A DNA stretch of 45,860 nucleotides. Origin: Candidatus Uhrbacteria bacterium (GTDB lineage: Bacteria; Patescibacteriota; Patescibacteriia; 2-12-FULL-60-25). Within the stretch, counting starts at the first letter, position 1, and the number at the start of each line of letters is the position of its first letter. Below are positions 8,740 through 11,678 of this stretch, piece after piece. The stretch is taken from assembly GCA_903829075.1 (NCBI GenBank), contig CAIKOH010000039.1, positions 1 to 45,860 of the forward strand, in the 5' to 3' direction. The translations under genes and the position numbers were made by a program. Under the pieces are notes generated by a model. The model saw nothing but the letters and a program-made list of their open reading frames with translations, ran no database searches and was not told the DNA's origin.

Positions 8740-8768
8740 TTGTTTTTTTTTCGCATCTGTCGTACAGT
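8740..8768 (+). promoter_or_regulatory. Sigma70-type promoter for the tRNA region
   Basis: TTGTTT (8740-8745), a 17-bp spacer and TACAGT (8763-8768), about 30 nt upstream of tRNA-Gly. It could drive the whole stretch to the terminator at 9217-9251. Confidence 0.5.
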
Positions 8769-8798: not shown

Positions 8799-8873
8799 GC
8801 GGGTATCGTATAGTGGTTATTATGCGTGCTTCCCAAGCATGAAACGCGGGTCCGATTCCCGCTACCCGCTCCA
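8799..8873 (+). tRNA. tRNA-Gly (CCC)
   Basis: A complete cloverleaf: acceptor GCGGGTA paired with TACCCGC, a short D arm (GTA/TAT), anticodon stem CGTGC/GCATG with loop TTCCCAA (anticodon CCC at 8832-8834), and T arm GCGGG/CCCGC with loop TCCGATT. The discriminator base is T and CCA is encoded (8871-8873). Position 55 of the T loop is read as C rather than the usual T. Confidence 0.95.
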
Positions 8874-8915
8874 TCAATCAAACAAAATCCATCCCCTGTT
8901 CCAATCCCCCATTAA

Positions 8916-9046
8916 GAGCGAGTAGAACGGGCGCATATGATATTTTATCGCGAGGACTGTCTGAGCAATCCATAAAAAATAAAATTGTTCTGCTTCCGAG
9001 TTCCCCCAGCGAAAAAAAATATCGTGTGCGCCCGTTCTACGAGCGA
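8916..9046. mobile_element. Possible MITE with 14-bp TIRs and 6-bp target duplication
   Basis: A 119-bp element (8922-9040) begins with GTAGAACGGGCGCA and ends with its perfect inverse (9027-9040). The flanks are the direct repeat GAGCGA (8916-8921 and 9041-9046), as expected of a target-site duplication. The interior is AT-rich, has no gene and contains a second imperfect inverted repeat (around 8939-8951 with 9009-9023). It lies between two tRNA genes, a common insertion zone. The alternative is the basal stem of a structured RNA, in which case the direct repeat would be chance. No transposase in the window shares these ends. Confidence 0.45.
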
Positions 9047-9049
9047 CCA

Positions 9050-9139
9050 TCTGCCCAAGTTCGGAAACGAACAAGGGCGGAACATGAAGGAATGAGCACG
9101 AGCGCAGGCTTGGGGAAACCCATTAGCCTCGCTCATTCC
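9050..9139 (+). ncRNA. Two GAAA-capped hairpins next to tRNA-Thr (candidate structured RNA)
   Basis: Hairpin 1 (9050-9081) has a 7-bp basal stem (TCTGCCC with GGGCGGA, one G-U pair), a symmetric AA/AA internal loop, the 5-bp stem GTTCG/CGAAC and a GAAA tetraloop. Hairpin 2 (9089-9139) has a 9-bp basal stem (GGAATGAGC with GCTCATTCC), an internal loop, AGGCT/AGCCT and then TGGG-GAAA-CCCA. It ends exactly one base before tRNA-Thr. I looked for SRP, RNase P, 6S and tmRNA signatures and found none. It may be a separate ncRNA or a structured tRNA precursor. Confidence 0.45.
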
Positions 9140-9215
9140 GCCAGCTTAGCTCAGTTGGTAGAGCAATGCTTTCGTAAAGCAGAGGTCCCGGGTTCGACTC
9201 CCGGAGCTGGCTCCA
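9140..9215 (+). tRNA. tRNA-Thr (CGT)
   Basis: Acceptor GCCAGCT pairs with AGCTGGC, D arm GCTC/GAGC, anticodon stem ATGCT/AGCAG (first pair A-G mismatched) with loop TTCGTAA, giving anticodon CGT. T arm is CCGGG-TTCGACT-CCCGG, the discriminator is T and CCA is encoded (9213-9215). A terminator follows directly. Confidence 0.95.
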
Positions 9216-9216
9216 C

Positions 9217-9251
9217 AAAAAAACATCCCCACACGGGGATGTTTTTTATTT
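9217..9251. terminator. Bidirectional terminator after tRNA-Thr
   Basis: A 7-bp GC-rich stem (CATCCCC 9224-9230 with GGGGATG 9235-9241) is flanked by a run of A on the left and a run of T on the right. It can therefore stop the tRNA transcript on the plus strand and the gene at 9268-9594 on the minus strand. Confidence 0.85.
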
Positions 9252-9623: not shown

Positions 9624-11678
9624 TTACGCGGCGTTTTTAAGAGGAGATGCAAAGCCGGACGAGGTCTTCCGAGTTATCGGAACGACATTGTCATGAGAGC
9701 TGCTCGCCGCGCGTTGCGCAAGACGATTATAATACGCCACGGCAACGAGGCGGACACGATACTGATCGGCAGGACTCATCTGATTAAATTCTGCGTTACG
9801 ATCCGCCGGTGACATGTTCAATCGATCATCGAAAAATTTCTGCCAAGCAGGGTTCTGATCAAGCGCCTGTTCGGCTTGCGCTTGAATCTCCATCTGAACT
9901 CTTGCCGACGCTTCATTTCCCATCGCGCGCAGCACATTTCCTGCTGCGTTGTAAGCAAGACGCGCCTGAAGAAGAGCTCCGTTGACCTGAGCAACGGCCT
10001 GATCGAGCCCATTTCCAATTTCACGCGCCACCTCTCCGATCTTATCAGCGACCTCGTTTGCTTTTTCTCCCACAAATTTTCCTGCTCTCACAACCTCAGA
10101 TCGTTCAAAATTTGTTTCTATATCACGCTTCCCCCAATTATATGTTGCTTCCCCAGCTTTATATGCCCCATAAAAAGGCAATACAGCAACGCCTACGGCA
10201 ACCTTTCCCGCTTCCACAGCCCCTCGTCCGACAGCCTTCGCACCCTTCATGGTCACGGATTTGTCCATGTCTAACGCATCTTCACGCGCCCAACGACCCG
10301 TCTCTCGAGCGCCGCGTACACCTAGTCCAAGGGTACTATCAACAACCGAACCAATTTTCTTCGCCACCGGACCAGCCAACTGACCAATTTTACTCAAACT
10401 GTTCTTAAAGAAATCCCACGCCCCTTTGCGAAACTCACGACCAATCTGCTCATTCTTTCCCATGGGTTTTTCAAACATAGCTGAAGATGAAGAATTATCT
10501 TGATCAGGTATAAACGCCTTCTCGTCGACGATGACACTTGCTTCCTGCGCTTGCGGAACAACGAGCTCTGAAGCTGCTGCACTATTTTCAGAAATCTGTG
10601 CTGCTGATTGAGACGATTCGATGGATGATGCTCCTGGCGTTTTAGAGGCGGCCTCACTCGCCACTCGTTCTGCCTCCATGGCAAACAATTCCTTTAACGA
10701 TTCAGCGACCTCATCTCCCGTAGCAAACTCCTTTGTCTGCGGCTCTTCATCACTTTCCTCAACAAGATGTGTGAGATCTTCAGCAGACTCCCTCTCGGCA
10801 TGCTCTTTCGCTTGTGCGGCTCCACCCTCTCCTTCAGCATCTACGGTATCATCGCTATTATCAATATCATCCGGAATCTCAAACACCTTATTCACATGAG
10901 ACGTCTCTCCTTTATTCCGCACAAAGGAGGCCACATCAATCCTCGGTGGCAGAACCGGTTCGTTTCGAACAAATTTCGATGCATCCACGCGCGGAGGCTG
11001 CTGAGTCTCATCTTGCGCCATCGCTACACCCTCCACAGCCGAGCGTTCAAGCGGCGACATCTCCGATACCGGTCCCTGAACCTCTTTCCTTCCTGAATCC
11101 ACGTCCTTTATCGCCCCCTCTGTCTTTGTAGCATCCGTTACCCCAATCACCTCATGCGCCGCAAGCATCTGCTCATCAAGCTTATCTAATTGGGCCTGAA
11201 TCGCGTCCTTTTCTGCAGGGGTTTTTGCTCTTGAGAGCTGCTCCGCAAGGACCTGTTGCTGATCACCTAGCGCATCTAAGGATTCTTGCGCACGTGTACT
11301 TGGAACATCGCTCGTACCGATCACCTCATGTGCCGCACCCATCGGCTCATCAAGCCTATCGAGCTGTGCGTTAATCGCGTCCTTTTCCGCAGGCGTCTTT
11401 GCTTTTGAGAGCTGCTCAGAAAGTGCGCGCTGTTGATCGCCCAAGGCGTCCAAAGACGCCTGCACCGTTTGATGCGTGTTCTTTTCTGCGGGAGATGTGG
11501 GCGCATCAAGCAGAGACTTGAGCCTCATTACCTCTGTTGCATCAACACTCGAACCACCTCCCGTCGCGGGTTTTACCTCGCGCGTCTCATCGTCTTCCTG
11601 TCTGCTCGCTTCGTGCAGCCGATCGGACACTCTGCTCGCAAACTCTTCAGCCGATGATCCTTCAGGTCCTCTATCCAT
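9624..11678 (-). CDS. Large repeat-bearing hydrophilic protein of unknown function
   Basis: A 684-residue protein. The ATG at 11678 is used because a terminator (11734-11759) lies just upstream, which excludes the longer reading from 11765. The N-terminal third is low-complexity and charged. It holds two near-identical ~57-residue units, each with SLDALGDQQ, EQLSKAKTPAEKDAI (or SRAKTPAEKDAI), QLDRLDE or QLDKLDE, and AAHEVIG. Then come two short FVRN units (DASKFVRNEP, DVASFVRNKG). The C-terminal third is helical and Ala/Gly-rich (KIGQLAGPVAKKIGSVVD, GAYKAGEATYNWGKRD) and ends with a doubled MSPAD motif. There is no clear membrane span or signal peptide. It may be a structural or cell-surface-associated protein, but the function is unknown. 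Confidence 0.75.
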   Translation of the reverse strand: MDRGPEGSSAEEFASRVSDRLHEASRQEDDETREVKPATGGGSSVDATEVMRLKSLLDAPTSPAEKNTHQTVQASLDALGDQQRALSEQLSKAKTPAEKDAINAQLDRLDEPMGAAHEVIGTSDVPSTRAQESLDALGDQQQVLAEQLSRAKTPAEKDAIQAQLDKLDEQMLAAHEVIGVTDATKTEGAIKDVDSGRKEVQGPVSEMSPLERSAVEGVAMAQDETQQPPRVDASKFVRNEPVLPPRIDVASFVRNKGETSHVNKVFEIPDDIDNSDDTVDAEGEGGAAQAKEHAERESAEDLTHLVEESDEEPQTKEFATGDEVAESLKELFAMEAERVASEAASKTPGASSIESSQSAAQISENSAAASELVVPQAQEASVIVDEKAFIPDQDNSSSSAMFEKPMGKNEQIGREFRKGAWDFFKNSLSKIGQLAGPVAKKIGSVVDSTLGLGVRGARETGRWAREDALDMDKSVTMKGAKAVGRGAVEAGKVAVGVAVLPFYGAYKAGEATYNWGKRDIETNFERSEVVRAGKFVGEKANEVADKIGEVAREIGNGLDQAVAQVNGALLQARLAYNAAGNVLRAMGNEASARVQMEIQAQAEQALDQNPAWQKFFDDRLNMSPADRNAEFNQMSPADQYRVRLVAVAYYNRLAQRAASSSHDNVVPITRKTSSGFASPLKNAA
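11160..11470 (-). repeat. Two tandem ~57-codon repeats inside the 684-residue protein gene
   Basis: The segments around 11160-11290 and 11320-11460 encode nearly the same helical unit, differing mainly by conservative changes (Ser/Arg, Asn/Gln, Arg/Lys). The DNA similarity shows a fairly recent internal duplication. Confidence 0.75.

Follow-up and report, generated by a model that had tools for sequence, protein, structure and literature searches.

The 266-nt spacer between the genes for tRNA-Gly(CCC) and tRNA-Thr(CGT) in a Candidatus Uhrbacteria genome contains a large hairpin, H0, that belongs to W, apparently an undescribed family of scattered hairpins in which the core is constant and each copy has its own well-matched arms. 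Probably, if well short of certainly, the two smaller hairpins that form the 3' end of the spacer, H1 and H2, are folded spacer RNA within a tRNA-Gly–tRNA-Thr precursor whose spacer grew by hairpin gain, H0 being one dispersed copy of W. H0 itself is most likely an ERIC/MITE-like hairpin inserted in a tRNA operon. The Gly-Thr spacer amounts to ordinary spacer biology and the W element within it less so; the family is noteworthy for its fixed core, copy-specific arms and chromosome polarity in streamlined Patescibacteria.

The window analysed here, 45,860 nt of this genome, carries all features of the locus on the plus strand. ARAGORN and Rfam place tRNA-Gly(CCC), the first gene of the pair, at 8799–8873 and tRNA-Thr(CGT), the second, at 9140–9215. 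An earlier note on this DNA had described two GAAA-tetraloop hairpins directly before tRNA-Thr, and folding reproduces both. H1 occupies exactly 9050–9081 and comprises 7 bp, a symmetric AA/AA internal loop, 5 bp and a GAAA loop; H2 spans 9089–9139, likewise with a GAAA loop, and its last base adjoins the tRNA-Thr start that ARAGORN sets at 9140. The hairpin pair is much more stable than expected by chance: 9040–9140 folds at −45.8 kcal/mol, dinucleotide-shuffled versions reach −26.0 kcal/mol (sd 3.3; z=−6), and none of 200 shuffles equals the native sequence. Folding of the whole spacer (8874–9140, z=−9) reveals H0 as its largest hairpin: 127 nt at 8918–9044 with a near-perfect stem of ~30 bp, just outside the 9050–9139 range reported before.

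A clear site resembling an intrinsic terminator follows tRNA-Thr at 9218–9247, which confirms the terminator noted at 9217–9251. The promoter proposed at 8740–8768 fails a sigma-70 consensus scan, whose sole promoter-like match lies at 8912–8941, within the hairpin region. What holds of the suggested tRNA-Gly-RNA-tRNA-Thr transcript is the structured RNA between the tRNAs and one likely transcript reaching the terminator; the promoter assigned to it does not. At gathering and at permissive thresholds, Rfam found the tRNAs only and nothing else convincing in the spacer region. The reported absence of SRP, RNase P, 6S and tmRNA signatures is borne out: RF00010 has no match here, the genome's own RNase P RNA being on contig C5 (158 bits), RF00013 (6S RNA) matches neither at the locus nor in any of 57 genomes, and neither Rfam nor ARAGORN detects SRP RNA or tmRNA at the locus.

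We compared the spacer across 19 loci of the bacterial family with both tRNAs in tandem within 300 nt, the relatives being from other genera. The Gly-Thr pair is conserved; the spacer measures 1–3 nt at nine of these loci, from many genera, and 15–266 nt at the rest, where it is mostly filled with hairpins. Since almost half of the tandem loci have 1–3 nt, the spacer looks like an expansion and not like an ancestral RNA gene. BLAST of the spacer in the relatives found no full-length homolog. Hairpins related to H1 occupy the same spacer position in two of the genomes, G002 and G016, with the common form CCACC-AA-GUUCG...CGRAC-RA-GGUGG, and the similarity exceeds chance (p<0.0005 for H1 against G002, 0.009 against G016, and 0.001 for G002 against G016). 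Among the loci compared the motif is confined to these three orthologous spacers, and we rejected H1 as a dispersed motif. Its covariation, which the earlier note had proposed as a check, is not significant in the three sequences: there is one compensatory pair, no better than in shuffles (154/500). For H2, no sequence similarity to anything in the G002 and G016 spacers emerged (p 0.1–0.4).

The proposal that the GAAA-loop pair is a conserved functional RNA is therefore not upheld: the spacer is nearly absent from nine loci and the H2 sequence is not conserved. GAAA loops are not family-defining, and the conserved structure of the wider region is H0. Excision of H1-H2, or of all three hairpins, from the tRNA operon as a small functional RNA appears very improbable, even though the fold is very stable and a homologous H1 sequence is kept in three genera; the hairpins are missing where the spacer has 1–3 nt, H2 is not conserved, H1 covaries no better than shuffles, and Rfam has no match. 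Like known tRNA-linked small RNAs and tRNA spacer fragments, H0-H1-H2 lie between tRNAs in one likely precursor; unlike them, they give no sign, as judged from sequence, of a product that is conserved or accumulates. We find no evidence of a separate functional RNA, and spacer structure in a tRNA precursor seems the more likely account. The persistence of H1 in three genera nevertheless hints at some selected role. At another Gly-Thr locus (L024, genome G021), the 221-nt spacer holds a 28-bp direct repeat and an apparent second copy of the tRNA-Gly 3' end, suggesting a small duplication or insertion at tRNA-Gly.

Among 43 tRNA leaders examined in this genome, the 55-nt leader of tRNA-Thr(CGT) has the most stable fold; most of the 43 have no leader hairpin. 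Strong hairpins also stand directly before tRNA-Gly(TCC), tRNA-Gly(GCC) and tRNA-Leu(CAA) (L402, L404, L403). In four relatives (G028, G016, G002 and G005), a spacer hairpin ends 0–5 nt before tRNA-Thr. H2, with H1, could thus be a cis-acting leader structure that governs how RNase P or RNase III processes tRNA-Thr(CGT). H2 runs right up to the 5' end of the tRNA, its leader ranks first, the four relatives repeat the arrangement and a few other leaders in the genome, such as those of Gly-TCC and Gly-GCC, resemble it, but most tRNA leaders lack a hairpin, many relatives have no room for one and the hairpin sequences are unrelated; we regard such control as unlikely.

In the favoured reading, folded spacer RNA gained hairpin by hairpin, the ancestral Gly-Thr pair probably had almost no spacer, and the spacer would have expanded in this lineage. 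H1 and H2 would be older local hairpins near the tRNA-Thr 5' end, and H0 one instance of a scattered intergenic element that is probably mobile. Co-transcription of the pair would start at a promoter ahead of tRNA-Gly and stop at the 9218–9247 terminator; RNase P cleavage at the 9139/9140 boundary would release H0-H1-H2 as a by-product. H2 may prevent mispairing of the leader with the tRNA.

H0 was placed in W through its loop and core. Short exact BLAST matches to the H0 loop in other genomes proved to be hairpins with the W core, GCGAGGACUGUYUGAG...CGAGUUCCGCAGC (also given as ...CGAGUUCCGCAG), which is invariant and sits inside a long self-complementary stem. The arms of 20–30 bp are copy-specific and mostly near-perfectly paired. 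Among 286 genomes of the class, 16 contain the pattern GAGGACTGTYTGAGN{4,34}GAGTTCCGCAG, with 57 exact copies in total against 0 for a reversed control pattern, and further copies occur in three genomes of other classes. An alignment of 29 copies, from which the window was left out, shows an invariant core between variable arms whose pairing is far above that of shuffles and slid controls. The covariance model built from it, R3, matches H0 at 8929–9033 with 45.3 bits (E=1.2e-9; genome-wide E 2.7e-8). H0 has the 17-nt 5' core exactly (GCGAGGACTGTCTGAGC, 8950–8966, identical to the core common to W copies), the 3' core CGAGTTCCCCCAG at 8997–9009 in the R3 alignment (consensus CGAGTTCCGCAG) and 22-nt arms that are at least 95% paired.

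R3 finds two more W copies in the same genome, one beside dnaA and one beside mnmA, and 0–22 copies per genome within the bacterial family. The W copy on contig C72 has part of the H0 apical loop in common, AATCC[A/T]TAAAAAA. On contig C44, a W hairpin (L401:1071–1154) directly adjoins dnaA, near DnaA-box-like repeats. We found no description of W, of R2, a second hairpin family treated below, or of the literal W core motif in open-licence PMC papers; the W family may be wider than found here and known under another name. BLAST gave no match to W in plasmids or phages, which is weak evidence for so short and interrupted a conserved core. Two W-like hairpins (L309:8988–9127 and 10191–10326) in inverted orientation flank a 315-aa ORF on an IMG/VR contig, which from its ORFs looks proteobacterial.

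The arms pose a puzzle of origin. In this genome, those of the three W copies are 35% identical to each other and 98% self-complementary. Ten copies in genome G027 agree in the core and over most of their apical loops (0.73 identity), and their outer arms, each self-complementary, reach 0.51 identity versus 0.46 when shuffled. Simple duplication would leave arms at least as alike as the loop, and the G027 arms are less alike. Either fast compensatory change has rewritten the arms, or the core is passed on without them. Probable orthologs in genomes G013 and G030 (L298 and L433, respectively), compared by eye, have recognisably the same arms, with mismatches gained in one species; this pair speaks for arms that were made once and then drifted. 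A strand-neutral wobble test counted 28 G-U versus 40 A-C for W.

Many W copies sit next to a gene on the opposite strand, 0–20 nt from its stop codon. Comparison of flanking genes revealed no recurring neighbour around W or R2 copies, and no transposase or other carrier among the W neighbours. No W copy other than H0 was found touching a tRNA gene, so the tRNA-adjacent position of H0 may be accidental. The W hairpins, H0 included, might instead be functional RNAs with a regulatory or structural role, kept at their sites by selection and not mobile, a reading that would fit the invariant core, arm pairing kept despite differing sequences and the many copies close to opposite-strand stop codons. 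We consider it doubtful, as copy number is highly uneven, neighbours do not recur, and some copies have decayed arms (L297, and L433 relative to its probable ortholog L298). Uneven copy number, the lack of recurring neighbours and copy-specific arms together lead us to infer that W is mobile.

W copies are polar along two near-complete chromosomes, a 1.24-Mb contig of G013 with 22 R3 matches, all plus-strand, and a 1.52-Mb contig of G030 with 13, all minus-strand. GC skew was sampled along both (G013:C3 and G030:C1; L330–L369). In each genome, one half of the chromosome combines strong GC skew (mostly about 0.10–0.19) with genes that lie mostly on a single strand; skew is nearly absent from the other half, a pattern unusual for bacteria. 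The W copies of both genomes lie mostly in the skewed half, antisense to its genes. Across all W loci, genes on both sides are on the opposite strand in 21 cases and on the same strand in 5. Part of the strand bias may follow from gene orientation, since W is mostly flanked by opposite-strand genes and antisense in the skewed half.

A more radical view is that W is a mobile core without ends of its own, whose arms are made from local DNA at each site; the core hairpin might, for instance, prime fold-back template switching at the replication fork. Local synthesis would account for the identity of the cores, the near-perfect pairing of otherwise unrelated arms and the use of one strand only along the GC-skewed half. 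We hold it to be improbable. If arms were made at the insertion site, the hairpin would spread in a manner unlike known MITE or REPIN behaviour.

Comparison with known systems sets the architecture of W apart. Integron attC sites form long hairpins whose structure is conserved and whose sequence varies; they are strand-polar and often follow stop codons. W resembles them in each of these respects; however, attC ends are conserved and the inside varies, whereas in W the ends vary and the inside is conserved, and W does not occur in cassette arrays. In REPINs, the outer paired units are conserved and the middle varies. W has the reverse conservation, inside fixed and outside varying, and no gene recurs beside it. 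W is similar to the tyrosine transposase-linked REP/REPIN sequences (PMC3116915, PMC3733652) in consisting of dispersed palindromic hairpins outside genes. Closest to the most likely reading of H0 are ERIC/IRU/RU-1, YPAL/RU-2, RU-3 and Correia/NEMIS, small mobile repeats that form one long hairpin, can affect neighbouring transcripts and, in known cases, are cotranscribed with their neighbours (PMC2229807, PMC2267715). W is like ERIC, YPAL, RU-3 and Correia in its ~100–200 nt, intergenic location, multiple copies of variable number and single hairpin (PMC2229807, PMC2267715). Repeats of the ERIC/Correia kind have sequence in common over their whole length, ends included, and most carry terminal inverted repeats; W has a conserved internal core and differing terminal arms, so that conserved terminal inverted repeats are lacking (arm identity 0.35, self-complementarity 0.98 in this genome).

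The Gly-Thr spacer of two other Uhrbacteria holds a 140-nt hairpin with compensatory changes that defines the second family, R2. R2 is a dispersed hairpin of ~141 nt with an apical GAG-CGUAC...GUACG-UUGA motif; example copies are L147:7153–7293 and L169:4188–4328, with more in L204–L278, and none of the hairpins has an Rfam match. H0 was tried as a member and rejected, with only 24.3 bits and the apical motif missing, before it was placed in W; R3 does not detect R2 copies. Of 286 class genomes, 20 contain matches to the R2 model, with at most 11 scored copies in any one; a refined model finds the hairpin in 15 of 41 genomes of the bacterial family, with 48 copies in G015. Double changes affect 43 of 46 pairs in 15 diverse copies and 45 of 46 in 83 copies, in alignments fitted to the model, which favours pairing. 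On the modelled strand, the outer stems contain 108 G-U versus 27 A-C, an excess of G-U suggesting that the folded form is this strand, as RNA or as single-stranded DNA.

Of 81 R2 copies, 20 directly abut a tRNA gene, an adjacency with binomial p about 4e-5 when the two seeds are left out and the background is taken as 8%, a value estimated and not measured. Copies also occupy 16S-tRNA and pre-23S positions; tRNA and rRNA flanks in these bacteria thus attract such hairpins. The genome studied here has a single R2 copy, in the 23S-5S rRNA spacer (L271:1501–1637, contig C79), and a group I intron (Rfam RF00028) lies within its 23S rRNA gene at L271:2682–2941.
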